A DNA stretch of 64,000 bases, taken from the NCBI GenBank assembly GCA_022820645.1, contig JAJEFD010000013.1, forward strand, positions 440,878 to 504,877, read 5' to 3'. Numbering within the stretch: position 1 is the stretch's first letter; every line of letters begins with the position of its first letter. The DNA comes from Dehalococcoidia bacterium. Its GTDB lineage: Bacteria > Chloroflexota > Dehalococcoidia > Lucifugimonadales > Australimonadaceae. A program made the position numbers and the translations under genes. Positions 10,000-27,535 of this stretch are shown in pieces. The notes below the pieces were generated by a model. It was not told the DNA's origin, did no database searches, and saw nothing but the letters and a program-made list of their open reading frames with translations.

Positions 10000-10392
10000 C
10001 TACTGCGAGAACCCCACGGGATGGAACGTGATCAGCTCTGTCGACGCGACAGGGCTGCCGTCGGCGTCCGCCGTCACCGCGAGCCGCGTGAGCACGCGCC
10101 ACTCCTCGCCCTGCCGCCGCACGCGAAGGATCACGAACGCGTTCTCCACCGGTTCGCCCGGCGGCTCGTCGAACCCCACGGTGAACTCGAGCCGCGCGCT
10201 TGCGCCGGACGCCAGCGGCGGCTGCGCCGTCAGCGGTACCGCCTCCGCCCGGAAGCGCCCGTGCGGCAGCCACGCTTCCAGCAATTCGATCGGCTCGCCC
10301 CCTGCGTTGCGCACCGCGAACGCAACGTCCCACGCGCCCGGTCCGCCGGAGGCCGGGCCGGTCTGCAGAACACTGAGAGACGGGCTCGTCAT
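10000..10392 (-). CDS. Hypothetical protein with predicted beta-sandwich fold
   Basis: 130 residues with no signal peptide or membrane helix. Alternating hydrophobic strands (WDVAFAVRNAGGEPIELLEA, ARLEFTVGF, NAFVILRVRRQG, WRVLTRLAVTAD) look like an immunoglobulin-like or C2-like beta sandwich. I do not recognise a family. It is followed on the same strand by the broken small gene at 9743-9958 and is divergent from the ubiD pair. Codon use matches its neighbours, so it is probably a real gene. Confidence 0.6.
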   Translation of the reverse strand: MTSPSLSVLQTGPASGGPGAWDVAFAVRNAGGEPIELLEAWLPHGRFRAEAVPLTAQPPLASGASARLEFTVGFDEPPGEPVENAFVILRVRRQGEEWRVLTRLAVTADADGSPVASTELITFHPVGFSQ

Positions 10393-10490
10393 GGCGTCAG
10401 GATATATCTCCCGCCAGCGCCCGGGGGGCAGACGATATTCGTAAGAAGTAAGGGGAATCGCAGTGCGAAACTGCGCAACGATGGCTTTGC

Positions 10491-10527
10491 TTGACCGGTC
10501 TACCCCTGCTCGGTAGTATCGCCGAGC
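10491..10527 (+). promoter_or_regulatory. Sigma-70-type promoter with overlapping dyad for the ubiD pair
   Basis: TTGACC at 10491-10496 and TAGTAT at 10514-10519 are separated by exactly 17 bp. GCTCGG at 10508-10513 and CCGAGC at 10522-10527 form a 6-bp inverted repeat bracketing the -10 box, a typical place for a repressor operator. The ubiD start follows about 40 bp later with a GAGGAGGAGG ribosome binding site. Confidence 0.55.
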
Positions 10528-10564
10528 GGGATATGCGCGAGACGCAACCCGAGGAGGAGGCGAA

Positions 10565-12028
10565 ATGGCGCACGTCGATTACAAGGACTTGCGGGACTAC
10601 CTCGGCGTCCTGGAGGAGAACGGCCTGCTCAAGCACGTCACCGCACCGGTCGATCTCGACTACGAGATCGGAGGCATCGCGGCGCGCGGGCTCGACAAGG
10701 GCGGCGACAGCCTCGTGGGGCTGCTCTTCGAGAACATCAATGGTTACCCCGGCAAGCGGGTGGTCGCGAACATCCTCGCCAAGACGGAGCAGCTCGCGCT
10801 GGCTATCGGCGCCGAGCCGGACGACATGACGCTCTACGAACGCATCGGGGAGGCGCGGCAGAGTCCCATCGCTCCGGTGCAGGTGTCGGAGGCGGTCTGC
10901 CAGGAGGAGGTTATCGCCGAGGAAGAAGTGAACCTGCACGAGCTGCCCATCCCGTGGTGGCACGAGGGGGATGCCGGACGCTACATCGGCACGACCGCAG
11001 GCGTCACGACGATGGACCCCGAGACCGGCTACATCAACCAGGGGCTCTATCGCTGCATGATCCTCGACGACAAGACGTTCTCCCTGCAGGCGCGCGGCGG
11101 CCACGAGATCGGCGAGAACCCCACGAAGACCGGCTATGGCGGACAGTCCCACATCCTCATGAACGAAGCGCAAGGGAAGCCGACTCCGGTCGCGCTCGCC
11201 ATCGGCATGGACCCCGCGCTCACCTACGCCGCGGGTGCGTTCGTGCACTCGGACGAGATAGAGCACGCCGAGTACGCCTTCGCGGGCGCGCTGAAGGGCG
11301 AGCCCATCGAGATCGTGAAGTGCCTCAACAGCGACCTGCTCGTCCCAGCCTACTCCGAGATGATCATCGAGGGCGAGATACTGCCCTACGAGCGCATCAA
11401 CGAGGGGCCGCACGGCGAGCACCAGGGTTTCTACACAGCGGTGGACAACGTGTTCGTCGTGCACGTGAAGTCGATCTCGCACCGGAAGGACGCCATCCAC
11501 TACGGCCTGATATGCCGCCAGCAGGAGGACTATCCCAAGTTCATGTACTCGGCGGGGATGCGCACTCGCCTTGAGGAGATGGGCATCGCCGACCTGCTGG
11601 AGGACGTGTGGTGCCCGGACAGCACGGGCGGCGGCTTCGGCGTCTTCGCCATCATCGCCGCGAAGGCCAGGACTCCCGCCGACGTGGCGCGCATCAAGGA
11701 AGCGATAACCAACCTCAAGGAAGAGCGTTACCTCGTCCGCAGGCCACGCTGGACGATCGTCGTGGACGACGACTGCGACGTTCGGGACTGGGCGGAGGTG
11801 ATGTGGCGGGTCGCGCTCGGCGTCATGCCGGACGCGCACCTCACCATCAGTGAACGGAACAATGCCATCTGGCACGAGCCGCTGGAAGTAGAGTTCGACG
11901 CAGGCTCTTGCGTCTTCGTCGACGCGACGTTCAAGACGAAGCAGGGGTTCGACCGCCCCATCAATGCGTTGAGCAGGGACCTGAAAGCGCGCGTCGACGG
12001 ACGCTGGCGGGAACTGGGGCTCGACTAG
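10565..12028 (+). CDS. UbiD family decarboxylase, copy 1
   Basis: 487 residues of the UbiD fold, prenylated-FMN enzymes that reversibly (de)carboxylate aromatic, heteroaromatic or alpha,beta-unsaturated acids. Family traits are DLRDYLGVLEENGLLKHV at the N-terminus, PIPWWHEGDAGRYI, the cofactor/metal region around NEGPHGEHQGFYT (usually EGPFGE; here Phe is His) and a DDDCDVRDWAEVMWRVALGV segment. The start has GAGGAGGAGG upstream. A second ubiD follows 31 bp later, so they form one operon. No UbiX flavin prenyltransferase gene lies in the window, so the cofactor must come from elsewhere. The substrate is unknown; nearby oxygenase and hydratase genes only loosely suggest aromatic acids. Confidence 0.88.
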   Translation: MAHVDYKDLRDYLGVLEENGLLKHVTAPVDLDYEIGGIAARGLDKGGDSLVGLLFENINGYPGKRVVANILAKTEQLALAIGAEPDDMTLYERIGEARQSPIAPVQVSEAVCQEEVIAEEEVNLHELPIPWWHEGDAGRYIGTTAGVTTMDPETGYINQGLYRCMILDDKTFSLQARGGHEIGENPTKTGYGGQSHILMNEAQGKPTPVALAIGMDPALTYAAGAFVHSDEIEHAEYAFAGALKGEPIEIVKCLNSDLLVPAYSEMIIEGEILPYERINEGPHGEHQGFYTAVDNVFVVHVKSISHRKDAIHYGLICRQQEDYPKFMYSAGMRTRLEEMGIADLLEDVWCPDSTGGGFGVFAIIAAKARTPADVARIKEAITNLKEERYLVRRPRWTIVVDDDCDVRDWAEVMWRVALGVMPDAHLTISERNNAIWHEPLEVEFDAGSCVFVDATFKTKQGFDRPINALSRDLKARVDGRWRELGLD

Positions 12029-12059
12029 CGGCCTCGCGCCGTATGAAAGGACAACAGCC

Positions 12060-13538
12060 ATGACGACCGAAGCGGAGATGGGGGTTGCGTACGACGACCT
12101 GCGTTCCTACATCGAGGCATGCCAGGCAGCCGATGACTGGCGGCTCATCGAGGGCGCGGACTGGGATGTGGAGATAGGAGCGCTGACGGAGGCGGCGGCC
12201 GACCGCATACCGGAGCCGCCGATGCTCCTGTTCGACAACATCAAGGGCTACCCGGAGGGCTATCGCGTCGTCAGCCTCACGGAGTCGTCGTGGAAGCGCG
12301 CGTGCATCGCGCTGGGCCTGCCGCTGGACCGTCCGAAGCTGGAACTGGTGCGGATGGCCGCCCGGAAGCTGAAGGCCGCGCACGACAGCCTCATCGGCCC
12401 CACCGAGGTCAAGAGCGGCCCCGTGATGGAGAACGTGTTCGAGGGCGAGCACGTCGACGTCTGGCAGTTGCCCATCCCCCGCTATCACGCGGCGGACGGA
12501 GGACGCTATCTCGGCACCGGCGGCGTGCTCATCAACAAGGACCCGGAGTCGGACTTCATCAACGTGGGCACCTACCGGATGCAGGCGCACGAGAAAGACC
12601 TGCTCGGTCTGTGGATGAGCCCCGGCCAGCAGGGCAGGCAGATATGCCAGCGGTACTGGGACCAGGGGAAGGCTGCGCCGGTCGTCGCCGCCTACGGGCT
12701 GGACCCGCTCACGTTCTCTGCCGGGCACATGAAGCTCCCGTGGGGGAAGAGCGAACTGGACCTGGCCGGCGGCCTGCGCGGGCGTTCCGTGGACGTCATC
12801 CCAGGCCCGATCACCGGACTGCCCATACCGGCCGGGGCGGAGATAGCCATCGAGGGAGAGGTGCCGCCCCCCTGGGAGCAGGCCGAGGAAGAAGGACCGT
12901 TCGGGGAATGGCCGGGCTACTACTCCGGCGGCACGCGCGGCACCGGCGAACCGCAGCCGGTCATCCGCATCAAGGCGCTCTACCACCGCAACTCGCCCAT
13001 CATCCACAACCAGGCGCCCATGTGGCCGGGCGCGGCGAAGTTCGCCATCCCGATCGGCGCAGGGTTGCTGTGGGACCAGTTGGAAGCGGCGGGCATACAG
13101 GACGTCACCGGCGTCTTCTCTTACACCGGCTATCTCGTCGCCATCTCCATCAAGCAGCGTTACGCCGGGCATGCGAAGCAGACCGCCCACGCGGCGGTCT
13201 CAGCCGCCGCAGCCGCGCGCAACGGGCGGTACGTCGTCATCGTCGACGAGGACATCGACGTCACGGACCTCAAGGAGGTCATCTGGGCGATGCAGACGCG
13301 CGTCGACCCCTACACCGACATCGAAACGATAGAGGGGACGTGGAGCACTCCCCTGGACCCCCGGATGCCTCCGGACAAGCGTGCGAACGGCGACCACACC
13401 AACAGCAGGGCTATCTTCTACGCCGTGCGCCCCTTCCACTGGAAGGACGAGTTCCCCGTGGTCAGCCGCACTCCGGCCGATATCCGCCAGGAGGTGATCG
13501 AGAAGTACCGCGGCATCCTCCCGTTCCCGGGTTTCTAG
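12060..13538 (+). CDS. UbiD family decarboxylase, copy 2
   Basis: 492 residues, related to but clearly diverged from copy 1. It has YDDLRSYIEACQAADDWRLI at the N-terminus, the PIPRYHAADGGRYLGTG segment, a canonical EGPFGEWPGYYSGGTRG active-site loop and IVDEDIDVTDLKEVIWAMQT near the C-terminus. It follows copy 1 with a short spacer containing GAAAGGA. Two distinct UbiD proteins in one operon may form a hetero-oligomer (as in some aryl carboxylases) or act on different acids. Copy 2 has the canonical Glu/Phe loop, so it is the better candidate for the active subunit; that is inference. Confidence 0.88.
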   Translation: MTTEAEMGVAYDDLRSYIEACQAADDWRLIEGADWDVEIGALTEAAADRIPEPPMLLFDNIKGYPEGYRVVSLTESSWKRACIALGLPLDRPKLELVRMAARKLKAAHDSLIGPTEVKSGPVMENVFEGEHVDVWQLPIPRYHAADGGRYLGTGGVLINKDPESDFINVGTYRMQAHEKDLLGLWMSPGQQGRQICQRYWDQGKAAPVVAAYGLDPLTFSAGHMKLPWGKSELDLAGGLRGRSVDVIPGPITGLPIPAGAEIAIEGEVPPPWEQAEEEGPFGEWPGYYSGGTRGTGEPQPVIRIKALYHRNSPIIHNQAPMWPGAAKFAIPIGAGLLWDQLEAAGIQDVTGVFSYTGYLVAISIKQRYAGHAKQTAHAAVSAAAAARNGRYVVIVDEDIDVTDLKEVIWAMQTRVDPYTDIETIEGTWSTPLDPRMPPDKRANGDHTNSRAIFYAVRPFHWKDEFPVVSRTPADIRQEVIEKYRGILPFPGF

Positions 13539-13628
13539 TTCCGGCGGAACGCAGGGTTTACGCATGCCCCGGTAGCGCCCCATGCCCCGGTTCGGGATAA
13601 TGGGCTATCCCTACCGCAGGAGGGTGCG

Positions 13629-14489
13629 TTGCGCATCGGGGCTCACGTTTCCGGATCAGGCTCGCTCGACAAGGCCATAGACAGGGCGCTGGACATCGGC
13701 GCGGAGTGCATCCAGCTCTTCCCCTCCGCCCCGCAGGGGTGGGGGTTCAAGGTCCCCGACGAGAAGATCGTCGCCGACTTCAAGCGCAAGGCGTTCGAGC
13801 ACGGCGTCGGCCCCAACGTGTTCCACGGCATCTATCTCGTCAGCCTCGGCGCCGACGATCCCGCGCTCGTGCAGCGCGGCAAGGCGTCGCTCGTCAAGTA
13901 CATGAACGTCGCGGGCGACATGGGCGTGCAGGGCGTCATCTTCCACCTGAACAGCCACAAGGGGCGCGGCTTCGACGGCGTATTCGGGCAGGTCATCGAG
14001 GGCATCCGCGAGGTGTTGGCCGACTCCCCGCCGGACGTGCAGCTCATCCTGGAGAACAGCGCGGGCATGGGGAACCACATCGGCTCCAGGTTCGCGGAGA
14101 TCGGCGCATTCGTGCGTGAACTGGACGACCCGCGCGTGCAGGTCTGCCTCGACACGCAGCACTCGTTCGCCGCGGGCTACGACCTCCGCACCCCGGACGG
14201 CGTCGACGCCGTGATGGACGAGTTCGACCGGGACATCGGCGTCGAGCACCTCGTCGCCGTTCACTGCAACGACTCGAAGCCTGCGCTCGGTGGGGCGCTC
14301 GACCGGCACGAGAACATCGGCGAGGGGCAGATGGGCATCGGCGCGTTCGAGTCGATACTCGGGCACTCCGCGTTCGCAAACGTGCCCTTCTACCTGGAGG
14401 TGCCCGGCTACGAGGGCAAGGGGCCGGACGAGCCGAACGTGACCACCATGAAGTCGGTGCGGGAGCGCGCCGCGCCGGACGCAGGCTGA
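13629..14489 (+). CDS. nfo: Endonuclease IV (AP endonuclease)
   Basis: 286-residue TIM-barrel enzyme that nicks DNA 5' to abasic sites in base-excision repair. The TTG start at 13629 has AGGAGG 7 nt upstream. Family features in order: MRIGAHVSGSGSLDKAIDRA, IQLFPSAPQGW (usually a run with N or S after QLF), VFHGIYLVSLGADD (His ligand), VIFHLNSHKG (His), LILENSAGMGNHIGS (Glu ligand), QVCLDTQHSFAAGYD (Asp, His), HCNDSKPALGGALDRHENIGEG (the zinc-binding signature) and YLEVPGY (Glu). Length is normal. It ends four bases before the zincin gene. Confidence 0.95.
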   Translation: MRIGAHVSGSGSLDKAIDRALDIGAECIQLFPSAPQGWGFKVPDEKIVADFKRKAFEHGVGPNVFHGIYLVSLGADDPALVQRGKASLVKYMNVAGDMGVQGVIFHLNSHKGRGFDGVFGQVIEGIREVLADSPPDVQLILENSAGMGNHIGSRFAEIGAFVRELDDPRVQVCLDTQHSFAAGYDLRTPDGVDAVMDEFDRDIGVEHLVAVHCNDSKPALGGALDRHENIGEGQMGIGAFESILGHSAFANVPFYLEVPGYEGKGPDEPNVTTMKSVRERAAPDAG

Positions 14490-14492
14490 GCC

Positions 14493-14900
14493 GTGATGCG
14501 CAAGCGGCAGTTCGAGGAGCTGGTCAGGCGCGCGGTCGAGGAAGTGGCGGACGACTGGCCGGATGCGAAGAAGGAGGGATGGCCCGTATTCGTGGAGAAC
14601 CTCCTGAGCAACAACGTGGACATCCAGGTGCGGCGTCAGCCGACGAAACGGCAACGCAGGTCGCTGGGGCTCGCGCCCGACGAAACGCTGCTGGGCCTCT
14701 ACGAGGGTGTCCCGTTGACTGACCGCGACGGCTACAACATGGTCCTGCCGGACGTCATCACCATCTTTCAGTTACCCATCGAGGAGATGTGCGAAACGGA
14801 GGAAGAGGTGATGGAGGAGGTGCGCAAGACGCTCGTGCACGAGGTGGCGCACCACTTCAGCATCACAGACGTGGAACTCGAAGCCTGGGGCGTCGCGTAG
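14493..14900 (+). CDS. Zincin-fold metallopeptidase family protein (PF06262-like)
   Basis: 135 residues with the zinc-protease signature HEVAHHF near residues 117-123 and a downstream acidic LEAWGV. The N-terminal half has FEELVRRAVEEVADDWPD and LLGLYEGVPLTDRDGYN, typical of the small single-domain minimal zincins. The first codon is GTG directly followed by ATG; either could start. It sits four bases after nfo and is probably co-transcribed. Peptidase activity has not been shown for most of this family, so the substrate is unknown. Confidence 0.85.
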   Translation: MMRKRQFEELVRRAVEEVADDWPDAKKEGWPVFVENLLSNNVDIQVRRQPTKRQRRSLGLAPDETLLGLYEGVPLTDRDGYNMVLPDVITIFQLPIEEMCETEEEVMEEVRKTLVHEVAHHFSITDVELEAWGVA

Positions 14901-14942
14901 GAGGGAGGCTCTACGCAGGCGCCCCACGCCTCGAATCGGGTC

Positions 14943-16124
14943 CTACACCTGCGCGTACTCCTCCATGAGCACGCGCGCGACCTCCGGGCGGCTGAACTCC
15001 AGCGGAGGCGTCTCCCGTCGCGCAAGCATGTCGCGCACCTGGGTGCCGCTCAACGAGACGCGGCTTTCGACGCCGTGGGGACAGGTCTTCTCCGAGGCCA
15101 TCGCGCCGCAGGCGGAGCAGAAGAACGAGTTCTCGAAGTAGAGCGGGGTGATGCCCAACTCCTTCGGCTCGAACTCCCTGAAGATGTGCTGGGCGTCGTA
15201 CGTCCCATAGTAAGAGCCGACGCCTGCGTGGTCGCGCCCCACGATGAAGTGGCTGCAGCCGTAGTTCTTGCGCGCGATGGCGTGGAACACGGCCTCGCGC
15301 GGCCCGGCGTAGCGCATGAACGCGGGGAAGACAGACAGGTGCACCCGGTCTGCCGGGTAGTAGTTCTCCAGCAGCGCTTCGTAGCACCGCATCCGTATTC
15401 CGGCAGGGATGTCGTCCGGCTTGGTCTCCCCCACCAGCGGGTGGAGCAGAAGCCCATCGGTTATCTCCATCGCGCACTTCTGGATGTACTCGTGCGCGCG
15501 GTGCACCGGGTTCCGGGTCTGGAACCCGACGACCGTCCGCCAGTTGCGGGCCGCGAAAGCGGCGCGCGTCTCGGCGGGCGTCTGGTGGTACGGGGCGGCA
15601 GCCGGTTCTAGCGCGGGCGTGCCGGAGAGCATGGTGATGCGCCCGCCGACGAGCACCGGCCCTTGTGCGTAGACGCCCGCAACGCCGGGATGCGCCTCGT
15701 CAGTCGTGCGGAACGCACGCTCCGCCTCAAGGTGCTTGTCGTAGCCGAACAGTTCGGCCACGTCGATGATGCCGGCCAGGCTGCCGTCCGGCGCGGCGAG
15801 CGCGGCCTGACCGCCCTCGCGCAGTCCTGCGGCTGTTTCCTCGTCGACAGCGAGTGTGACCGGAAGCGGCCATACTACGCCCGATTCGAGGCGCATGTGG
15901 TCGCGCACGCTGAGGTAGTCGGCCGAGGTGAGGAAGCCCTCCAGCGGGCTGAATGCGCCCTGTGCGATGAGCCGGGCATCCGACTCCTGGCGCGCGTTCA
16001 GCCTGATGACGGGCAGCGACACTGCGCTCTCGCTCAACTCGATGGCGTCGGCCGCAACGCGGTCGATCAGTTGCCCGCCGTGCGGCGTGATGAGTTGCGT
16101 TTCGGTGGTGGTGGCGGTAGTCAT
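14943..16124 (-). CDS. sat: Sulfate adenylyltransferase (ATP sulfurylase), single-subunit type
   Basis: 393 residues; activates sulfate with ATP to give APS. Start ATG 16124 overlaps the cysC stop. The HxxH-type nucleotide motif is [12 protein letters not shown], and GRDHAGVG is the second conserved site. Near the C-terminus [18 protein letters not shown] gives a Cys-x2-Cys-x8-Cys-x-His cluster, as in zinc-containing bacterial and archaeal enzymes. An apparent N-terminal extension up to 16742 in this frame is arginine- and glycine-rich antisense shadow of cysC and not part of the protein. It is third gene of cysH-cysC-sat; no CysD/CysN pair is present. Confidence 0.96.
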
Positions 16125-16687
16125 CAGGCGACACGCTCCTTCACAGTGTTCAGGTAGCCCAATTCCTCCAGTGCGGAGAGGACCTTCTCGACGCTCTCTT
16201 CCACGGTCTCGCTTTCGGTGTCGACGACGACCTCGGGGTTCACCGGCGCCTCGTATGGGTCGGAGACGCCGGTGAAGTTCTCTATCTCGCCGCGAAGCGC
16301 CTTCTCGTAGAGGCCCTTTACGTCGCGGCGCACCAACTCGTCGAGCGGACACTGGACGTAGACCTCGACGAAACTGCCGATGTGCGCCCGCACTTCGTCC
16401 CGCACGTCCCGGTACGGCGAGATCGCGGCGACGATGCTCGCGACGCCGTTCCGCGTCAGCAGATTGCTCACGAAGCCGATGCGCCGGATGTTGGTGTCCC
16501 GGTCCTCCTTGCTGAACCCGAGCCCCTTGCTCAGGTTCGTCCGGACGATGTCCCCGTCGAGCAGTTCGACCTTGCGGCCACGCTCCTGCAACTCCTCCAC
16601 GAGCGCGTTCGCGATCGTGCTCTTGCCTGCGCCCGACAGGCCGGTCAGCCATATCGTTACGCCCTGGTCCTCCACTAACTGAGTCAT
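16124..16687 (-). CDS. cysC: Adenylylsulfate kinase
   Basis: 187 residues; phosphorylates APS to PAPS. The P-loop is [12 protein letters not shown], followed by [11 protein letters not shown] (APS-binding DGD), [27 protein letters not shown] and [19 protein letters not shown], all family hallmarks. The ATG at 16687 has AAGGAGGT with 8-nt spacing; a GTG two codons earlier is too close to it. It lies 32 nt after cysH and overlaps sat. Because the CysH here looks like an APS reductase, this kinase may supply PAPS for sulfation rather than for reduction. Confidence 0.96.
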
Positions 16688-16719
16688 CTTCACGTACCTC
16701 CTTCTGGTATCGCTTTTCT

Positions 16720-17448
16720 CTATCTGGCAATGGGGAGTTCAAGCGGCCCGTCCGTGTGCAGGCCGCACTCCGTCTTGTCGAATCCCACCCAGCGTCCCGC
16801 CCGCAGGTCCCCGTCGCTGGCGGACGCCGGGCGGGTGCAATGCACGCACCCGATGCTGGCGTAGCCCTGGTCGTGGAGTGGGTTGTAGGGGACCCCGTTG
16901 GCCCGCACGTACTCCCAGACCTCCTCCTCGCTCCAGTCGGCGAGGGGATTGAGCTTCACGAGGTCGAATTTGTGGTCCCACTCGACCTTGGCGATGTGGC
17001 TCCGGGTGGCTGCCTGGTCGCGCCGCAGGCCTGCGATCCATGCCTGCTTGCCCTGGAGTGCCCGCGCGTTCGGCTCTACCTTCCGCAGCGAACAGCACAT
17101 GTCGGGGTTGCTCTCCCACAGGTTCGGGGCGAACTCGCGCGCCTGCGCTTCCAGCGTCCAGCGGGAGCGGTATCCGACCGGTTCGACGCCGTAGTGATTG
17201 CGCACCTGCTCGATGAGTGCGTACGTCTCCGGGAAGAGCAGGTCCGTATCGAGGTAGAACACTTCGAAGGCCCATCCGGTGCGAACGGCCATATCGAGCA
17301 GCGCCATTCCGGACGCTCCCCCGAACGAGCAGGCGAGCGCTATCTCGGGGCTGTATCGCTGCAGCCCCCAGTTCAGCACCTCGTGTGCCTCCGCGAGCTC
17401 CAGCCGGGCCCCGGCCTGCACTGCCTCTTCCATCGTCGCGTGTGTCAT
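16720..17448 (-). CDS. cysH: Assimilatory APS (PAPS) reductase
   Basis: 242 residues of the PAPS-reductase fold: [19 protein letters not shown] (PP-loop), [16 protein letters not shown], the cysteine pairs [10 protein letters not shown] and IGCVHCTRP, and the C-terminal active-site motif KTECGLH. The CC plus CxxC set binds a [4Fe-4S] cluster and marks APS-reducing enzymes; pure PAPS reductases lack it. It makes sulfite for cysteine synthesis. The ATG at 17448 follows AGGAGGAG by 8-9 nt (a TTG directly before is the alternative). It is the first gene of cysH-cysC-sat and lies directly behind a cysteine-codon leader peptide and terminator hairpin. Confidence 0.94.
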
Positions 17449-17475
17449 CAAGGGTCTCCTCCTGCTTAAACGAAG

Positions 17476-17501
17476 GAACCCCCGGCATCTTCCGGGGGTT
17501 C
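17476..17501 (-). terminator. Attenuator hairpin in the leader of cysH-cysC-sat
   Basis: GAACCCCCGG (17476-17485) and CCGGGGGTTC (17492-17501) form a perfect 10-bp stem with a 6-nt loop. On the minus transcript it is followed by CUUCGUUU, a moderately U-rich tract, and then by the cysH ribosome binding site. Its 5' arm on the transcript can pair instead with an upstream segment (17572-17580), which would abolish it. It is therefore best read as a conditional terminator. Confidence 0.75.
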
Positions 17502-17531
17502 GCGAGTTGGCGTTCTGCTTGGCGGTCGGTA

Positions 17532-17624
17532 TCAGCGATCGGTGATGTCCGCGCGGAACTGCCTGACGGGTGCGAACCCCTCAGGCATACAACAACAGCA
17601 GCAAACGGTTGCGCGGGAAAGCAT
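17532..17624 (-). CDS. Poly-cysteine leader peptide of the sulfate assimilation operon
   Basis: A 30-residue ORF starting MLSRATVCCCCCMPEG and ending RADITDR. Five consecutive cysteine codons (TGC TGC TGT TGT TGT) occupy 17603-17589; a run of five Cys in 30 residues is very unlikely by chance. The ATG lies 7 nt after a -10 box, so the mRNA is probably leaderless and translation starts at its first base. There is no ribosome binding site. The gene downstream makes cysteine precursors, so the ORF has the properties of an attenuation leader: ribosomes should stall on the Cys run when charged Cys-tRNA is scarce. It is not annotated as a protein of independent function. Confidence 0.85.
   Translation of the reverse strand: MLSRATVCCCCCMPEGFAPVRQFRADITDR
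17560..17587 (-). promoter_or_regulatory. Leader hairpin 1 (anti-antiterminator) of the cys operon
   Basis: On the transcript UGCCUGA (17587-17581) pairs with UCAGGCA (17566-17560), with an inner GGG/CCC pairing around UUCGCA. The 5' arm begins one base after the last Cys codon, so a ribosome paused on the Cys run would cover it. The segment GGGGTTCGC (17580-17572) inside this hairpin is exactly complementary to GCGAACCCC (17503-17495), which contains most of the terminator's 5' arm. Confidence 0.7.
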
Positions 17625-17631
17625 CCGATTG

Positions 17632-17660
17632 AGATTAACAGCGGTGCTACCGGCTGTCAA
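17632..17660 (-). promoter_or_regulatory. Promoter of the cys leader and cysH-cysC-sat
   Basis: On the minus strand the -35 is TTGACA (17660-17655, consensus) and the -10 is TAATCT (17637-17632), separated by exactly 17 bp. The expected start of transcription, about 7 nt further, coincides with the A of the leader peptide's ATG at 17624. The -35 lies inside the last codons of the upstream dehydrogenase gene. Confidence 0.8.
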
Positions 17661-18717
17661 GCACAGCATGTCCACGCGCTGCCGTGAGCCGCTCTTCGGC
17701 GAGACGGTTCGCCGCCTCCGCCGTCGTGATGCCCTCCGCATCCGCGATCGCGAGCACCCGCTGCATCGTGTCGTAGATGGTGGCGGTGTGGGCGCGCGCG
17801 CCTTCGCGGTCGTAGGGCTGCCCTATCTCGAAGTAGACGTTCGTCACGCCGCCCGCGTTCGCGATGAAGTCCGGCGCGTAGACGATGCCGCGCTCTACCA
17901 GCCGCTGCGCGTCCTCCGGTGTGGCGAGCTGGTTGTTCGCCGCGCCGCACACCACCTGGCACCGCAGCCGGGGCAGGGTTGCCTCGTTCAGCACGCCGCC
18001 CAGTGCGCAGGGTGCGAACACGTCGCACTCCGCGTCGTAGATGGCGTCCGGCGCCACGAGCGACGTGCGCGGCAGGCCCGCAGCGCGCTGCAGCGCGTCG
18101 TCGTGGATGTCGGTCACGATGAGCTCCGCGCCCGCCTCGACGAGGTGCGCCGCGAGCGACGATGCAGCGTTGCCGAAGCCCTGGATGGCGACGCGCCGCC
18201 CTTCGAGCGAATCGCTCCCCCACGCAGCCTCGGCGCAGGCGCGCATCCCCTGGAACACGCCGAACCCGGTCATGCCTGCGGGGTTGCCGCTGCCGCCCAG
18301 TTCCTCCGGCAGACCTACGACGTGCGGCGTCTCCTCGGCTATCCACACCATGTTCTGCGCGTTCGCGCCCACGTCCTCGGTCGTGACGTAGCGCCCGCCA
18401 AGCGACTCCACGAACCGCCCGTAGGAGCGGAACATCGCCTCCGTCTTGTCGGTGCGCGGATCGGCGACGATGAGCCCCTTGCCTCCGCCGAGATTGAGGC
18501 CCGCCGCCGCTGACTTGTAGGTCATCGCGCGGGAGAGGCGCAGGACGTCCATGATGGCGTCCTCGTCCGAGGGATGCGGCCAGATGCGCGTGCCGCCGAG
18601 CGACGGCCCCAGCGTGCGGTCGTGGATGGCGATGAACGCCTTCACGCCGTTGGCAGGGTCTGTCCAGACGGCCAGCTCTTCGTGTCCGCTCGCCTGCATG
18701 TACTCGATGAATTCCAT
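17647..18717 (-). CDS. Leucine/glutamate-type amino acid dehydrogenase
   Basis: 356 residues of the Glu/Leu/Phe/Val dehydrogenase family, which interconvert an L-amino acid and its 2-oxo acid with NAD(+) and ammonia. The substrate domain has GPSLGGTRIWPH, RAMTYKSAAAGLNLGGGKG (two lysines of the active site) and YVTTEDVGAN. The Rossmann part has VAIQGFGNAASSLAAHL, where the usual final glycine of GxGxxG is alanine. The C-terminus includes GAANNQLA and YAPDFIANAGGVTN. Length (about 355) fits leucine/valine dehydrogenases rather than glutamate dehydrogenases (over 410). Start ATG 18717 is preceded by GGAGGGGG. Its end overlaps the cys operon promoter. Confidence 0.9.
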   Translation of the reverse strand: MEFIEYMQASGHEELAVWTDPANGVKAFIAIHDRTLGPSLGGTRIWPHPSDEDAIMDVLRLSRAMTYKSAAAGLNLGGGKGLIVADPRTDKTEAMFRSYGRFVESLGGRYVTTEDVGANAQNMVWIAEETPHVVGLPEELGGSGNPAGMTGFGVFQGMRACAEAAWGSDSLEGRRVAIQGFGNAASSLAAHLVEAGAELIVTDIHDDALQRAAGLPRTSLVAPDAIYDAECDVFAPCALGGVLNEATLPRLRCQVVCGAANNQLATPEDAQRLVERGIVYAPDFIANAGGVTNVYFEIGQPYDREGARAHTATIYDTMQRVLAIADAEGITTAEAANRLAEERLTAARGHAVLDSR

Positions 18718-18734
18718 TGCTCACACCCCCTCCG

Positions 18735-18755
18735 GTGCTATGTTAATCGTAGCAC
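18735..18755. promoter_or_regulatory. Inverted repeat upstream of the amino acid dehydrogenase
   Basis: GTGCTA (18735-18740) and TAGCAC (18750-18755) bracket a 9-nt AT-rich centre containing TTAATC. The pair lies about 20-40 bp before the dehydrogenase start, where a promoter and operator would be expected. No cognate regulator is encoded nearby. Confidence 0.3.
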
Positions 18756-18792
18756 TTTCGGCGGATACGTGCACGCCTGTAGAGGTTCAGCC

Positions 18793-19788
18793 TCACTCAT
18801 CGTGATGTGGTTCGTGCAGGAGTCCCCGCCAGCCCTGCATGAGCCCGATGCCCTCGCGGGGCAACACCACGATCGCGAATATGGTCGTTGGCCCCAGCAG
18901 CACGAGGTGCAGGATGAGCCCGAACCCAATCCCCAACTCGCGCGGCACGTCCCATAGCGCCAGTATCTCGACCACCGCGAGTTCGAATGTGCCGACGGCG
19001 CCCGGCAGCCCCGGTAGCGACGTCGCGAAGAAGATCGCGCCGAGCGCGACGATGGTCGCCTGGAAGATCGAAATCTCGATCCCCATGCCCTGCGCCAGCA
19101 CCCACGCGCACGGTCCCAGCAGGAGCGAGTAGATGATGGTCAGCGACCCCGTGGTCGCCAGCTCCCGCTTCCGTCGCATCGCCTCGCTTATCGTCTGCTC
19201 GTAGGTAAGGATCCCGGGGATCCTTCCAACCAGGGAGATGCGGCGCGCCACCCGCCCCAGGTTCAGCAGCAGCACGAAGAAGACGATGAGTATCCCGCTC
19301 AGGTAGATCGCCGGGCCTGCGAAGTCCGCTATCCGCGGCTCGGATACGATCGCCACGAACGCGAATACCATCGTGAACATGATGTCCTGCACGCGCGTCA
19401 TCACGATGGTCGCCACCACGGTCGCTGCGGGATGCCTGTCCCGCAGCGTCAGCATCGTCAGCACGGCGGGCTCGTCCATCAGCCGCACCGGCGCGAAGTT
19501 GTTCAGGCCCAGCGCCGCCATCTCCACGGTGAAGAGCCGCCAGGAGGTGACGCGTTCGGACGTCCACATCAGCCGCCACCGGTAGGCGCGCAGGAAGCTG
19601 GAGAAGAGCATGATCGCGATGGCGGCCGCTACTGCCAGGAGCGACGTTTCGGCCAGCTGCTCGCCTACCTCTCCCCATTCGATGCCGCGTATCGTCAGGT
19701 AGAGGAAGAACCCACCGAGCGCAAACCCGAACGGAACCAGGAAGCGCGGGCTCCTGATGATCGAGAAGAGCGTGGAGAGGAAAGCCAT
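18793..19788 (-). CDS. Lysylphosphatidylglycerol synthase-type transmembrane (flippase-like) protein
   Basis: 331 residues with about eight membrane helices, matching the UPF0104/LPG_synthase_TM family. Hallmarks are AIMLFSSFLRAYRWRLMW, ALGLNNFAPVRLMDEPAVL, VVATIVMTRVQDIMFTMVFA and FATSLPGLPGAVGTFELAVV (the conserved P.G.G..E motif). Family members flip or transport lipid-linked molecules; no catalytic transferase domain is attached. The gene ends about 75 bp from the dehydrogenase start and follows the HerA-type ATPase by about 10 bp on the same strand. Substrate unknown. Confidence 0.85.
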   Translation of the reverse strand: MAFLSTLFSIIRSPRFLVPFGFALGGFFLYLTIRGIEWGEVGEQLAETSLLAVAAAIAIMLFSSFLRAYRWRLMWTSERVTSWRLFTVEMAALGLNNFAPVRLMDEPAVLTMLTLRDRHPAATVVATIVMTRVQDIMFTMVFAFVAIVSEPRIADFAGPAIYLSGILIVFFVLLLNLGRVARRISLVGRIPGILTYEQTISEAMRRKRELATTGSLTIIYSLLLGPCAWVLAQGMGIEISIFQATIVALGAIFFATSLPGLPGAVGTFELAVVEILALWDVPRELGIGFGLILHLVLLGPTTIFAIVVLPREGIGLMQGWRGLLHEPHHDE

Positions 19789-19798
19789 GGGCGCGGTC

Positions 19799-21427
19799 TC
19801 AGCCGAACAGGTCGCTCCTCGATGGGGTGGAGGCCGATCCCGGCGCCGCGCCGTGTCCCGGCACGCTCATGTCCGCGTAGAACGCCTCGTCGTAGGCCCG
19901 CGTCCGCACGACCACCGGCATCGGCAGCGCGTGCCCGAACATGAGCGACTGCTGCTGCGACTCCAGCCGCGACAGCACGGTCTTCAGCTCCCGGGAACCC
20001 GGCGCGCCGGTCAGCACCGCGTCGACGTCGCGGTCGTTGTCGAGTTGGCAGACGATGCGCGTGCCCACCTGGCTCAGGACCTCGCCATCGATGCCGGACG
20101 GGCGCTGGTCCACCACCAGCAGCGTCACGCGGTACTTCCGCATCTCCCGCGCGATGGTCCCGAAGATCGTCTGTCCGGCGACGCCGGGGTCGAGGAATCG
20201 GTGCGCCTCCTCGATGGTGATGAGGAGCGGTGTCGGCTGGGGCTTGCCCTCGGCGAGCGCCTTTTCCGTGCGCTCTCGGTACTCGGCGTGGATGCGCCGC
20301 GTGATGAGGTTGGCTACCAGCAGGTAGGCCGTGATGTTGTCGCCGTAGCTGCCGAACTCCAGCACCACGTGCCGGTTGTCCTGCAGGTGCTCCAGCACCT
20401 GGCGCACGGCGCTGCCGCCCGTCGAATGTTCCGACATGAACCCGAACCGCTGGAGTTGGGAGAGCCTGCGCCGCAACGCACCGAGCGTTCCCGCGTTCTC
20501 GGCCATCGAATCGGCCAGCGATGCCAGGTCCTCCTGCGAGTGGTGCAGGAACTCCAGCAGCCAGTTCCGCCCGAAGCGGCGCTCCAGCGCGTAGCACGAC
20601 TGTACGCCCAGGTCGGTCACATGCAGCGTGGAGGCGAGCACCGCGATGTCGTCCGGCTCGATCTCGTCGAACCCGATGACCACGTCGTAGTCCGTTGACG
20701 CGCCCCGGCGCCGCGACGACGCAGGGTCGAGCGTGAACACGGAGACGCGGCTCCCGAACAGCTGCTTCAGCCCCTTCGCCGCGTAGCCGGACTCGGACGT
20801 GGACTGCCAGCCGTACTCGCTGTGCATGTCGAACACGAGGTTGATGGCCGCGTTGCGCTGCAGGATGCCTGCGAGCAGGATGCGTGTGAGGAAACTCTTG
20901 CCGGAGCCGCTCTTGCCGAAGACGCCGTTGGAGCGCTTCACGAACTCCTCGAGGTTCAGGCAGACGCGCGTGTCCTCCATGTCCAGGGGGCTGCCTATCC
21001 AGATGTGACGCGCGTCCTCGCTGCCGAAGACCGCGGCCACGTCGTCGTTGGACGCCCGGTACGCATCGGCGAAGTGCGGGGGCATCGAGCGCGCGGGCTG
21101 CGGCCCCTCGTCGCCTGCGGTCATCGTAAGCATCGGCGTTACCGACGCCGTCGAGTACGCCGTCGTGCCGGAGAGCGCCTCTGCCAGCGCCGCCCCGCCT
21201 CCCGCGACCGCCGACGCCATGCGCGGATCGCTGCTCTCCAGTTGCAGGTCGGTCACGATGCCGAAGAAGCGGTTGAACTGTCCCTGCACGGTGACGAACG
21301 TGCCGACCTTCACGTCTTCGACCGCGCGCGCCGACTCCAGCCGCACGTCGAGCCCGCGCGAGAGTGACCCGCCCACGACCGCGCCGATGCGGACGGGGAC
21401 CTCGGGTTCCGTGCCGTTCGTGGTCAC
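19799..21427 (-). CDS. HerA-type hexameric DNA translocase / ATPase (DUF87)
   Basis: 542 residues from GTG 21427, which overlaps the preceding gene's stop (GTGA). The N-terminal HAS-barrel is about residues 12-65 (VRIGAVVGGSLSRGLDVRLE to FFGIVTDLQLE). Walker A is GKSGSGKS at about 171-178; Walker B is LLITIEEAHRFLDPG. A sensor/arginine region is VTLLVVDQRPSGIDGEVLSQ, typical of HerA/VirB4-like pumps. HerA relatives move along double-stranded DNA, usually with the nuclease NurA in end resection. No nuclease gene is adjacent; the partner is instead a second HAS-barrel-like protein. An apparent longer N-terminus to 21955 is antisense shadow of that partner gene. Confidence 0.9.
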   Translation of the reverse strand: MTTNGTEPEVPVRIGAVVGGSLSRGLDVRLESARAVEDVKVGTFVTVQGQFNRFFGIVTDLQLESSDPRMASAVAGGGAALAEALSGTTAYSTASVTPMLTMTAGDEGPQPARSMPPHFADAYRASNDDVAAVFGSEDARHIWIGSPLDMEDTRVCLNLEEFVKRSNGVFGKSGSGKSFLTRILLAGILQRNAAINLVFDMHSEYGWQSTSESGYAAKGLKQLFGSRVSVFTLDPASSRRRGASTDYDVVIGFDEIEPDDIAVLASTLHVTDLGVQSCYALERRFGRNWLLEFLHHSQEDLASLADSMAENAGTLGALRRRLSQLQRFGFMSEHSTGGSAVRQVLEHLQDNRHVVLEFGSYGDNITAYLLVANLITRRIHAEYRERTEKALAEGKPQPTPLLITIEEAHRFLDPGVAGQTIFGTIAREMRKYRVTLLVVDQRPSGIDGEVLSQVGTRIVCQLDNDRDVDAVLTGAPGSRELKTVLSRLESQQQSLMFGHALPMPVVVRTRAYDEAFYADMSVPGHGAAPGSASTPSRSDLFG

Positions 21428-22077
21428 GAGCCCTCGCTCAGGGGGAGCCGCCGCATGATCGCGGCGAGCCGCGCCGCGTCCGTGGGCAGCTGCGACGCTA
21501 TCGTGCGGCACGCCTGCATCAGGAACGCGCGCGGGTCGCCGAAGTGCGGCGCGGCCTCCCGCAGCGCCGCGGCGAGCACGTCGTCGGCGGTCGGCAGGGC
21601 GCTTGCGAGCACGAGCGCCGTCCAGTCGCTCCGCTCCATGAACCCGCGCACCTCGGTGCCGGAGCAGGCGTAGAGGAACGTGTGGATGCGCGGTGGCAGG
21701 GGCGGCAGGTGCTGGAAGTAGCGTCCGCTCTCCTCGTGGCCGACGACCGTGAGCGTCACGTCGGTGCGGAGCAGCCGCTCCAACTGCGGGTTCTCCGCGT
21801 ACACGTCCGACTCCGACTCCAGCCCGGCGCCGCGGGCGATGACGCGCCTGCCCGGGTCGAGCGCTGCCGTGCTCACGCCGTCCACGACGGCGAACAGCGA
21901 CGCGCCCACGCGCACGAGCGTCCCCAGCGGCGGGGCGCCGTACAACGTGTGGCACTGCCCCACGACGCTGTCCACCGACGCCTCGACGACCTCCCCGAAC
22001 TTCGTCGTTGCGCCGGGGTCTGCAGTCGCGGGGTCGGTGGAGGGAGAGGGGCTGCTTGCTGGCCGTGCGGCGGGCAT
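21424..22077 (-). CDS. HAS-barrel-like protein, co-translated partner of the HerA-type ATPase
   Basis: 217 residues from ATG 22077. The first about 20 residues are Pro/Ser/Ala-rich and look flexible; residues about 27-75 (FGEVVEASVDSVVGQCHTL, PLGTLVRVGASLFAVVDGVS) resemble the beta-barrel that caps HerA ATPases. The rest is helical (RSDWTALVLASALPTADDVL, RTIASQLPTDAARLAAIMRR). It is not an obvious NurA: the usual acidic nuclease motifs are not seen. A TACAAT box ends 6 nt before the ATG, so the mRNA may be leaderless. The GTGA overlap with the ATPase argues for a stoichiometric complex. Confidence 0.7.
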   Translation of the reverse strand: MPAARPASSPSPSTDPATADPGATTKFGEVVEASVDSVVGQCHTLYGAPPLGTLVRVGASLFAVVDGVSTAALDPGRRVIARGAGLESESDVYAENPQLERLLRTDVTLTVVGHEESGRYFQHLPPLPPRIHTFLYACSGTEVRGFMERSDWTALVLASALPTADDVLAAALREAAPHFGDPRAFLMQACRTIASQLPTDAARLAAIMRRLPLSEGS

Positions 22078-22115
22078 GCGGCTATTGTAGCGTAGCAATG
22101 CTGGAGGACACGCCT

Positions 22116-23162
22116 ATGACATCGAACGGTTCCAACCCTGCCGAAGCCCCGCACTTCACGCGCGAGTGGCTGATCGACGCCCTCCGCTACGTCCGGCGCG
22201 ACTTCGAGGCCGCTGCCTCCGGCGAGGCAGAGGAGGGCGACGCCCGCGCTCGCTCGCGCATGGAGATGGCGCGCCGCATGGGGCTGGACGTGCTCGCCGG
22301 CGAGGCGATGGCTGCGATAGACCGTGCCATCGACGACGCCGCGCGCCTCGAATGGCCCGGCGGGCTGGAGGTGCGCTACACCGCGTTCCTCGGTGCGCTG
22401 AAGACGCTCGCACAGGCGAGCAGCGCCTTCAACGACCACACGCCGGAGCGCCCGCACCTGACCTATCTCGCGGAGACGATGGCGCGGGCCGAACTCGCCG
22501 CCGCGAGCCTCGTCCGCAGGCGCAGGGCCGAGCGCCTGCGCGGGCTGTACGTCATCGTCGATCCGTCGCTCACCCTCGACCGCGACCCCGTCTGGATCAC
22601 GCAGGAGGCCGTCGCTGGAGGCGCGACCGCCGTCCAGCTGCGCGTGAAGGAGACCGACAAGGGCCGCTGGCTCCCGCTCGCCGGGACGCTGCGCGGCGTC
22701 TGCAACGATGGCGGCGCTGCGCTCATCATCAACGACCACCCGGACGTTGCCGTTGCCGTGGGGGCCGACGGCGTCAACCTTGGCCAGAACGACATGCCCG
22801 TTGCGGCTGCCCGCGCCACGCTGCGCCCGTGGCAGATCGCGGGCACGTCCAACGCACTCGCGACCGAGGCCGACGTGTCGGTGCAGGCCGGGGCCGACTA
22901 CGTCGCGGTGGGGCGCATGTTCCCCACCGGCTCGAAGGCCGACACCCGCCCCGCGGGGCCGGAGACCCTGCGCGCCGTGCGCGACGCCATGCCATTTGAC
23001 GGCCCGCCGCTGCTGGCGATAGGCGGCATCACCCCGGAGAACGTCGGCGAGGTCGCCCGCGCGGGCGCGGACGGCATCTGCGTCATCGCCGCCGTCACCC
23101 AGGCCGACGACCCCCGCGCTGCCGCCGCCCGCCTGCTGGAAGCGTTCGACGCGGCTGGCTGA
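22116..23162 (+). CDS. thiE: ThiE-like thiamine-phosphate synthase with an unrecognised N-terminal helical domain
   Basis: 348 residues from ATG 22116 (GGAGGA 7 nt upstream). Residues from about 147 onward are the ThiE TIM barrel, which joins HMP-PP and thiazole phosphate: LYVIVDPSLT, GGATAVQLRVKE, ALIINDHPDVAVAVGADGVN LGQNDMP (the usual HLGQ is NLGQ here), VAVGRMFPTGSK and LAIGGITPENV. The first about 145 residues are helical with many Arg/Glu/Ala (RMEMARRMGLDVLAGEAMAA, RPHLTYLAETMARAELAAAS). They lack the ILDAN..RAREGLR motif of the ThiD2 domain that is fused to some ThiE proteins, so the extension is something else. No other thi genes are nearby. Confidence 0.85.
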   Translation: MTSNGSNPAEAPHFTREWLIDALRYVRRDFEAAASGEAEEGDARARSRMEMARRMGLDVLAGEAMAAIDRAIDDAARLEWPGGLEVRYTAFLGALKTLAQASSAFNDHTPERPHLTYLAETMARAELAAASLVRRRRAERLRGLYVIVDPSLTLDRDPVWITQEAVAGGATAVQLRVKETDKGRWLPLAGTLRGVCNDGGAALIINDHPDVAVAVGADGVNLGQNDMPVAAARATLRPWQIAGTSNALATEADVSVQAGADYVAVGRMFPTGSKADTRPAGPETLRAVRDAMPFDGPPLLAIGGITPENVGEVARAGADGICVIAAVTQADDPRAAAARLLEAFDAAG

Positions 23163-23208
23163 CCTCTCCCCTGCCAGCCGCTCACCCCAATCCTGATACC
23201 ATGCCCGC

Positions 23209-25104
23209 ATGCCCGCTTCACCCCCAGGCGAGGAGACAACGACGCTCACGCTGACGCTGCGCGCGCTCGGCAGGCACGGCGAGGCGCTCGCGGAGACGGA
23301 CGACGGTAAACCCGTCTTCGTGTTCGGCGGCATCCCCGGCGAGACGGTCACCGCGGAGGTCGTGGCAACGCGACGCGGTTACGTGGCCGCGCGCGTGAAC
23401 GACGTGTCGGAGCCGTCGCCGCACCGCGTTGAGCCCGCCTGCCGCTACTTCGGCGAGTGCACCGGCTGCCAGTGGCAGCACGTCGCCTACGAGCGCCAGC
23501 TGGAGATGAAGCGCGAGGCGCTGGCTGACGCCCTGCACCGCATCGGTGGGCTGGATATCGAACCGCTGCCCACGCTGCCCAGCCCCGATACGCTGGGCTA
23601 CCGCAACCACGCCCGCTTCACGGTGAGCAAGCAAGGCGGGCGGCTCGGCTACGTCCACAAGGAGCGACGCCGTCACGTGGAGGTGGAGGAGTGTCTGCTC
23701 ATGGCGCCGTGGATCAACCACGCGCTGGCGTCGCTGCAGGGACACGCTGCCGAGACCACCCAGCTCTCGCTCCGGTACGGCGTGCACACCGGCGACTACC
23801 TGCTGCAGCCGACCTTCCAGGACATGGACGTGCCGCTGGCCTCCGGCCAGAAGCACTACCAGGAGGTGCTGCTCGGCCACCCCTTCCGCATCAGCTCCCC
23901 GTCCTTCTTCCAGGTAAACACCCGCCAGGCCGAGCAGATGGCCCAACTCGTCATGGGGGAACTGCGCCTGGACGGCTCGCAGACCGTCGTGGACGCCTAC
24001 GCGGGCGTTGCGACGTTCGCCGTGCTCATGGCCGACCGCGCGCGCCGTGTCATCGCGGTCGAAGAGTCCAAGTCGGCGGTCGCCGACGCCCGCGTGAATA
24101 TCGAGGGCATCCCGAACGTGGAACTGCGGCAGGCGCGCACGGAAGACGTGCTGTCGGAACTCGCGGAGGGAGGCGTCGACGCGGTGCTGCTGGACCCGCC
24201 GCGCGCCGGTTGCATGCCGGGAACGCTCGATGCGCTGCTGGACGTGCCGCCGGAGCGCGTCGTCTACGTCTCGTGCGACCCCGAAACGCTGGCGCGCGAC
24301 CTCGCCATCCTCGCAGCGGGGCCGTTCCGCATCGAGCAGGTACGGCCCGTCGACATGTTCCCGCAGACGTACCACGTCGAGGCCGTTGCGACGCTCGTCC
24401 GCGACGACGAACGGCTCGCGGTGCTGCGCGGACGGCAGACGCTGGTACTGGCATCGTCGTCCCCGCGCCGCACGGAGATACTCGGACGACTGGGGCTGCC
24501 GTTCGAGACAGAGGAGCCGGGCGTGGACGAACCGGACGCCGCCCCCGGAGCGGACCCGGTTGAGGTCGCGCGGGAGCGTGCGATCGAGAAAGCCCGCGCC
24601 GTCGCATCCCGAAGGAGCGCCGGGACCGTGTTCGGCGCCGACACCGTCGTCGAGCTGGACGGTGTCGTGCTCGGCAAGCCCCACGACGATGGAGACGCCG
24701 TGCGGATGCTGCGCGACCTGCGTGGCCGCGAGCACCGCGTTATCACGGCGGTGGCGCTCGTCGACGCCGCGACTGGCGAGACGGCGGAGGGCTACCGGGC
24801 GTCGCGCGTGGTGATGCGCGACTACACCGACGAGGAGATAGCGGCGTACGTCGCCTCCGGCGCGCCGATGGACAAGGCGGGCGCGTACGGCGTGCAGGAC
24901 GAGGCATTCGCTCCGGCGGCAGAGGTGCACGGCTGCTACCTGAACGTCGTCGGCCTGCCGGTCTGCGAGACCCTCAAACTGGCAGAGCGGTTCGGCCTGC
25001 GGCGGCGCCTGCGTCTCGACGGGCAGTGGCCCGCGCTGGAGCGCTGCCCCGCGTGCGCGGGGCAGGTGCGTCCGAAACCCCTGAGCGGACGCAGCAAGCG
25101 ATGA
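23209..25104 (+). CDS. Fusion: RlmD/TrmA-type RNA m5U methyltransferase plus Maf-type nucleotide pyrophosphatase
   Basis: 631 residues in one uninterrupted frame. Residues 1-405 are a 23S rRNA/tRNA uracil-5-methyltransferase: TRAM-like barrel, four [4Fe-4S] cysteines (Cys78, Cys84, Cys87, Cys162), VDAYAGVATFA as a divergent SAM motif, LLDPPRAG, and catalytic Cys356 in YVSCDPETLARD. Residues about 410-605 are a Maf domain: TLVLASSSPRRTEILGRLG, VFGADTVVELDG, GKPHDDGDA, GAPMDKAGAYGVQDEAF and LNVVGLPV. Maf proteins hydrolyse non-canonical or methylated pyrimidine nucleotides, including m5UTP-like ones. A tail with CPAC may bind metal. The tatB-like gene overlaps its stop. Confidence 0.9.
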   Translation: MPASPPGEETTTLTLTLRALGRHGEALAETDDGKPVFVFGGIPGETVTAEVVATRRGYVAARVNDVSEPSPHRVEPACRYFGECTGCQWQHVAYERQLEMKREALADALHRIGGLDIEPLPTLPSPDTLGYRNHARFTVSKQGGRLGYVHKERRRHVEVEECLLMAPWINHALASLQGHAAETTQLSLRYGVHTGDYLLQPTFQDMDVPLASGQKHYQEVLLGHPFRISSPSFFQVNTRQAEQMAQLVMGELRLDGSQTVVDAYAGVATFAVLMADRARRVIAVEESKSAVADARVNIEGIPNVELRQARTEDVLSELAEGGVDAVLLDPPRAGCMPGTLDALLDVPPERVVYVSCDPETLARDLAILAAGPFRIEQVRPVDMFPQTYHVEAVATLVRDDERLAVLRGRQTLVLASSSPRRTEILGRLGLPFETEEPGVDEPDAAPGADPVEVARERAIEKARAVASRRSAGTVFGADTVVELDGVVLGKPHDDGDAVRMLRDLRGREHRVITAVALVDAATGETAEGYRASRVVMRDYTDEEIAAYVASGAPMDKAGAYGVQDEAFAPAAEVHGCYLNVVGLPVCETLKLAERFGLRRRLRLDGQWPALERCPACAGQVRPKPLSGRSKR

Positions 25105-25400: not shown

Positions 25401-25402
25401 CG

Positions 25403-26248: not shown

Positions 26249-26249
26249 G

Positions 26250-27497: not shown

Positions 27498-27498
27498 T

Positions 27499-27535
27499 CC
27501 CCTCTCCCTACAAGGGGAGAGGGCTGGGGTGAGGG
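27499..27535. repeat. Interspersed palindrome, CCCTCTCCC / GGGAGAGGG family
   Basis: CCCTCTCCC (27500-27508) and GGGAGAGGG (27515-27523) form a 9-bp stem and are followed by the family's 3' flank CTGGGGTGAGGG. The same arrangement recurs at 45503-45535 and 46491-46556 inside genes and in degenerate form at 28916-28976. Here it lies between the MFS gene and the convergent tatA, where it may also act as a terminator. Confidence 0.75.

Follow-up and report, generated by a model that had tools for sequence, protein, structure and literature searches.

The window, by which we mean the whole stretch of 64,000 nucleotides that was analysed, carries on its minus strand the genes cysH, cysC and sat and, ahead of them, a short ORF accompanied by promoter-like boxes and hairpins. 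The features are listed here in 5' to 3' order along that strand. The leader ORF, the Cys codons and the Shine-Dalgarno-like motif were identified by reading the sequence, and the -35 box by the same reading together with a promoter comparison.

17655..17660, minus strand: -35 box TTGACA
17632..17637, minus strand: -10 box TAATCT, after a 17-nt spacer, with TGT before it and 7 nt to the leader ATG
17532..17624, minus strand: leader ORF MLSRATVCCCCCMPEGFAPVRQFRADITDR, 30 codons, predicted to be leaderless
17589..17603, minus strand: five consecutive Cys codons TGCTGCTGTTGTTGT
17560..17587, minus strand: hairpin 1, the proposed anti-antiterminator (1:2), -19.6 kcal/mol
17572..17580, minus strand: segment 2, the antiterminator strand GGGGTTCGC, which complements 17503-17495 exactly over 9 nt
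17495..17503, minus strand: segment 3, GCGAACCCC, common to antiterminator and terminator
17476..17501, minus strand: terminator-like hairpin GAACCCCCGG-aagatg-CCGGGGGTTC, 10 bp, -20.3 kcal/mol
17468..17475, minus strand: imperfect U-tract CTTCGTTT, falling short of the at least 6 T in 8 that our strict rule (below) demands
17456..17463, minus strand: Shine-Dalgarno-like motif AGGAGGAG of cysH
16720..17448, minus strand: cysH, PAPS/APS reductase, ATG at 17448 (Pfam PF01507, E 1.4e-49)
16124..16693, minus strand: cysC, adenylylsulfate kinase (Pfam PF01583, E 1.1e-63)
14943..16124 (start approximate), minus strand: sat, ATP sulfurylase (Pfam PF01747 and PF14306)

This reading of the minus strand bore out the claim of an earlier note on the same DNA that a 30-codon ORF with five consecutive Cys codons stands upstream of cysH-cysC-sat. 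The upstream neighbour of the leader is a Glu/Leu/Phe/Val-dehydrogenase gene (Pfam) on the same strand, whose end lies 22 nt 5' of the leader ATG. That neighbourhood, together with the fact that GC-rich hairpins are common, would also fit the view that the hairpin before cysH is the ordinary gene-end terminator of the dehydrogenase gene, and that the Cys run and the complementarity are there by chance. However, the Cys5 motif TGYTGYTGYTGYTGY occurred a single time on the two strands of the 64-kb window and was absent from all 100 dinucleotide shuffles, and the survey of relatives described below weighs further against this explanation. The leader folded with a z-score of -2.22, with 8 of 200 shuffles folding equally well or better. 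An Rfam scan of the window, covering T-box, SAM and other riboswitches, gave 0 matches at the gathering score, and the same scan of 16 related loci returned tRNA only; a riboswitch or T-box identity was therefore rejected.

The promoter had been described as a consensus promoter. Its TTGACA box and 17-nt spacer stood up to inspection, but the word consensus is too strong for the -10 box, which agrees with TATAAT at 3 of 6 positions and was for that reason missed by a consensus scan with a threshold of 4. A TG lies one base ahead of this hexamer. Because 7 nt separate TAATCT from the ATG at 17624, the transcription start point is predicted to be the A of the leader ATG or the base before it, which agrees with the start at the ATG proposed previously. 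The -35 box shares sequence with the last codons, at the 3' end, of the dehydrogenase gene (window 17647-17660), so the leader could also be reached by readthrough from upstream.

The RNA elements downstream of the Cys run were all recovered as they had been drawn. Hairpin 1 (TGCCTGA-gGGGTtcgcACCCg-TCAGGCA, 17587-17560) has a 5' arm that begins one base past the Cys run, and the 9-nt complement between segment 2 (17580-17572) and segment 3 (17503-17495) is exact, with the alternative duplex predicted to reach 12 pairs at -21.9 kcal/mol. The perfect 10-bp terminator-like hairpin is likewise present ahead of the cysH ribosome binding site; its stem is the longest among 9 terminator-like sites in the region 10000-29000, where shuffles give 5.9. 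The tail 3' of this hairpin is not a continuous U run, and this broken U-tract is why the window and its genus sister, locus L002, fail the strict terminator criterion applied below.

The poor U-tract is one reason to consider a mechanism that involves no termination. In the polycysteine attenuators of mycobacteria, RNA structure sequesters the downstream ribosome binding site, and Canestrari et al. (2020) reportedly described translational control by polycysteine leaderless short ORFs in these bacteria. By analogy, a ribosome slowed on the Cys run of the window would open the cysH binding site. The genus of the window does have a leaderless-looking polycysteine ORF like that of mycobacteria, and the Shine-Dalgarno region is partly paired with the Cys-run region in the minimum-energy fold; yet the same region is unpaired in the centroid fold, and the stable 10-bp hairpin stops before the Shine-Dalgarno motif and does not cover it. 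Since, in addition, a leader segment matches the 5' arm of the terminator and the U-tracts of the 40 strict loci presented below contain 6 or more T in 8, we consider translational attenuation of this type unlikely.

Within the genus, a CysH match was present in 2 of 6 genomes, the window's own included, the other being L002. The remaining four (G001-G004) had no CysH match, so that sulfate assimilation by the CysH route may be patchy in the genus. In L002 the leader reads MISRASVCCCCCTSEGFAPVRQFRADIVTR and the peptide is conserved, as is the Cys run, in which the fifth codon shows a synonymous TGT-to-TGC change. The promoter (TTGACG-17-TACTAT) keeps the 7-nt spacing between -10 box and ATG, and hairpin 1 and the alternative pairing are both kept, each with one wobble. 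The terminator gains one pair, its 5' arm having an additional T and its 3' arm an additional G. We also observed that L002 and the window are identical over 30 nt, GCACCCGTCAGGCAGTTCCGCGCGGACATC (window 17573-17544), which come after the antiterminator strand and continue beyond the end of hairpin 1.

To look beyond the genus, CysH loci were collected from three sources: 59 related genomes yielded 27 loci; named genome contigs contributed the best 80 of 172 confirmed relatives; and 110 loci were taken out of the 175 members of the class in which a search of 393 had revealed CysH. Once identical starts were dropped, 209 of these 217 loci were left, with some genomes represented twice (e.g. L009 and L043). 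Our strict rule called for an ORF of at most 60 aa with at least 3 Cys within 7 residues and, at a distance of 20-150 nt beyond it, a hairpin no weaker than -14 kcal/mol with 6 or more T in 8 after it. It was satisfied at 40 of the 209 loci on the gene strand and at 0 of 209 on the reverse strand, which is an imperfect control because strict terminators as such numbered 80 on the gene strand and 31 on the reverse strand; a comparison with other residues therefore counts equally. When Cys was replaced in the rule by another residue, the gene-strand counts out of 209 were 22 for G, 21 each for A, L and R, 14 each for P and S, 10 for V, 4 for T, 3 for W and 2 for N, with all further residues at 0 or 1 (M 1, H 1, F 1, Y 0); reverse-strand counts for the non-Cys residues ranged from 0 to 8.

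By source, the strict loci amounted to 13/27, 17/76 and 10/106. They form 28 sequence clusters, mostly from Chloroflexota and some from Acidobacteriota; the window and L002 stand outside the 40 on account of their U-tract. Loci labelled Acidobacteria or Blastocatellia included L050, L053, L060, L063, L068 and L079, and one (L100) was from Phycisphaerae. One strict hit, L040 (labelled Rubrobacter), looks like chance by eye and was retained in every count. Two earlier filters were superseded by the strict rule: a first, simpler one with 23/209 forward loci and 1 control hit, and a looser one with 64 hits in 55/209 forward loci against 19 hits in 18 reverse loci. From the 64 forward hits we had picked 41 leaders by hand after some of the sequences had been seen; L048, which contains many N, was omitted from this selection and also falls short of the strict set. 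Two loci outside every count, L017 and L020, have only two leader Cys codons (C-P-C and C-L-C) in an AT-rich region upstream of cysH, where a promoter-like pair of boxes and a U-run terminator are nevertheless present.

In the genome of the window itself, runs of four Cys codons were not enriched, since TGYTGYTGYTGY gave 27 matches against 45 for the reversed control pattern. Apart from the window site, these matches overlap a longer open frame, the exceptions being L224 and L225, where only short frames were present (136 and 91 codons) and where L225, judged by eye, appears surrounded by tRNA genes. No strict terminator was found near L224 or L225, and both were rejected as further leaders of this genome.

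Promoter position was compared across the 41 hand-picked leaders. A promoter score of at least 9.5 was obtained for 24 of them, and in 14 of these an ATG lies 7-12 nt past the -10 box; the 10 others have their first ATG or GTG at a distance of 27-51 nt, with L068, one of them, having an additional TTG at 9 nt. The promoter match was weaker or absent in the remaining 17. A leaderless start is thus predicted to be frequent and not universal, and we regard the start sites, placed from promoter position, as putative but common among the leaders.

The case rests mainly on comparison across loci, in which we also asked whether each leader pairs with its own terminator. For this we computed the duplex energy between the 30 nt past the last Cys codon and the 5' arm of the terminator at the same locus, and compared the sum with that obtained after permuting partners. 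Because the first set had been picked by hand, the test was repeated on an automatic set of 28 clusters (42 entries) from which the window family was excluded. Cognate pairing summed to -453.9, against a permuted mean of -362.9 (sd 14.3), corresponding to a z-score of -6.38 and to 0 of 100,000 permutations. Control segments gave no signal, whether taken upstream of the Cys codons (z -0.78, 28 clusters), at 20-50 nt (z -0.14, 27 clusters) or at 30-60 nt (z 0.73, 24 clusters), and neither did pairing with the 3' arm of the terminator (z 0.63, 28 clusters). The hand-picked set (30 families) gave a z-score of -6.66 for 0-30 nt, and its 24 families outside Acidobacteriota gave -6.2, or -5.8 without the window family; Acidobacteriota plus one Phycisphaerae record alone (6 families, 0-40 nt) gave -1.3, which is not significant. 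When the families were considered one at a time, 10 of the 30 did better than simple shuffles at the 5% level, so strong pairing is not found at every locus. The alternative pairing is thus specific to the cognate locus across the 28 clusters when these are pooled, which means that the terminator arms as a group have a matching strand in a segment that would stay accessible if a ribosome stopped on the Cys codons. A comparison of Cys run and pairing in relatives had been proposed in the earlier note as a check; L002 keeps both, and the pooled clusters show the cognate-specific pairing.

These results also bear on the competing explanations. Neither the 40 versus 0 of 209 loci nor the cognate pairing is expected by chance, and relatives carry the element before several different sulfur genes, which makes a gene-end terminator of the dehydrogenase gene a very improbable explanation. 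A further proposal would be that the Cys-rich peptide itself is functional, in metal, redox or thiol sensing, with the RNA structures being secondary. A long run of Cys could in general serve to bind metals or to react with oxidants. Outside the Cys codons, however, the leader peptides vary widely among loci in both length and sequence, and it is the segment past the Cys codons that tracks the terminator arm; we give a functional peptide the smallest chance of all the explanations considered. Compared with shuffles, the hairpin-1 regions showed no clear gain in stability, with a mean z-score of -0.69, 7 of 30 families below -1.5 and the window family at -1.1. Hairpin 1 is clear in the genus, and weak or not clearly conserved elsewhere, and outside the genus the ribosome itself may do more of the switching work.

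We then considered how the window leader would fold while being transcribed, with the ribosome assumed to extend 12 nt past the first base of the codon in its A site and with RNA up to the terminator loop. With any of the five Cys codons in the A site, the model gave the antiterminator a probability of 0.99-1.00, as compared with 0.07 without a ribosome, when hairpin 1 reached 0.93. For later codons the antiterminator fell to 0.56 at codon 13 and to 0.00 from codon 14. A ribosome on codons 1-7, before the Cys run, gave 0.29-0.98 and thus could also favour the antiterminator, so that selectivity rests on where ribosomes actually stall. At equilibrium with the complete terminator, the terminator had a probability of 1.00 at every ribosome position; as the finished terminator always wins in this calculation, the switch must be kinetic and set by timing.

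Altogether, the anatomy described above is present in the window, the element recurs before sulfur-assimilation genes in relatives, and cognate pairing is evident in the pooled clusters. We therefore think it quite probable that the element is a ribosome-mediated, trp-type transcription attenuator that senses charged Cys-tRNA; the cysteine-attenuation reading of the earlier note gains support from the conservation in L002, the cognate pairing in 28 clusters and the folding of the nascent RNA. In such an attenuator, RNA polymerase would start at or beside the leader ATG and a ribosome would load onto the leaderless 5' end. With ample cysteine, the ribosome would clear the Cys run and hairpin 1 would re-form behind it, so that the terminator could form and transcription would halt before cysH. 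When Cys-tRNA is scarce, the ribosome would wait on the Cys codons and mask the 5' arm of hairpin 1; GGGGTTCGC could then pair with GCGAACCCC in the nascent RNA and remove the 5' arm of the terminator, and with that arm captured, cysH-cysC-sat would be transcribed.

The genes that follow the leaders in relatives are of several kinds. At many loci the first gene is cysH itself, while at a few the simple ORF finder gave no frame or a clearly wrong one. A Pfam check of six proteins following leaders about 1 kb or more upstream of cysH identified TauE-type proteins in L009 and L112, a PHO4-type permease in L004, a sulfite reductase in L049, a tetrapyrrole methylase in L068 and, in L050, a PAPS_reduct protein that we read as CysD. 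In L009 and L043 (labelled SAR202-VII-2) two tandem Cys-cluster leaders, each with a terminator-like hairpin, stand before the TauE-type gene, those of L009 at about -1266 and -1113 relative to cysH. L049 and L063 have two separate Cys-cluster leaders, a proximal one immediately ahead of cysH and a distal one some 2 kb further up, the distal one in L049 preceding the sulfite reductase gene. It is conceivable, and we propose it tentatively, that polycysteine leaders at the mRNA 5' end combined with transcription termination make up a cysteine regulon that works without a protein regulator, spans sulfate uptake, activation and reduction as well as siroheme synthesis, and recurs in Chloroflexota and Acidobacteriota, sometimes in tandem.

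How does this element compare with known systems? The attenuators of the trp and his operons combine end-product codons in a leader with a competing hairpin, an antiterminator and a terminator. In the window, end-product codons are clustered in the leader ORF (five Cys, with 40/209 strict loci against 0/209 on the reverse strand), and 3' of them lies an antiterminator strand that shares the 5' arm of the terminator-like hairpin; hairpin 1 is the proposed competing hairpin, and the terminator-like hairpin is strong with an imperfect U-tract. The window differs in that cysteine takes the place of Trp or His, that the start is predicted to be leaderless, and that the leader stop is some 40 nt beyond segment 2, a position from which a ribosome would probably fail to cover this segment. 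For the trp/his model we refer to PMC1183508. Cys-run leader peptides ahead of mycobacterial cys operons were described in 2005, with conserved terminator hairpins being absent (PMC1262725); in 2015, leaderless Cys-run ORFs were proposed as candidates for the first cysteine-directed attenuation (PMC4633059), and subsequent work on the polycysteine leaderless ORFs of mycobacteria showed that they control how the downstream gene is translated, as given in PMC9031893 and PMC13236596. The window resembles these ORFs in its contiguous Cys codons, its short and predicted leaderless ORF, its association with a cysteine-metabolism operon and its proposed readout of Cys supply through ribosome speed; whereas the mycobacterial ORFs control translation, the window has a terminator-like hairpin and an antiterminator pairing. 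Another known system is uORFC-8-2 of Rhodobacterales, predicted in PMC8632094 to be a cysteine-specific ribosome-mediated transcription attenuator before cysS. Both are predicted transcription attenuators with Cys codons, uORFC-8-2 having a terminal U run. As described there, uORFC-8-2 is a single conserved motif of Alphaproteobacteria with two tandem Cys codons before a cysteinyl-tRNA synthetase gene, in contrast to the five Cys codons and the downstream cysH of the window, and to leaders that differ in sequence between clusters and are followed by biosynthetic genes. Thus, ribosome-mediated attenuation itself is known, and among the literature matches listed, which mostly lacked subscription papers, no terminator-type polycysteine leader was described for Chloroflexota or Acidobacteriota.

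A survey from 2010 named Proteobacteria, Actinobacteria and Firmicutes as groups with leader-peptide attenuation (PMC2965389). If our reading is true, this form of control would extend past the groups named in that survey. The element would also unite leaderless polycysteine sensing, so far described as translational, with a classical terminator/antiterminator switch. As it can be found from the DNA letters alone, its regulon could be listed genome by genome. Few members of the Chloroflexota are in culture; if our reading is true, many of this phylum would have their assimilatory sulfate reduction governed by ribosome speed on Cys codons.
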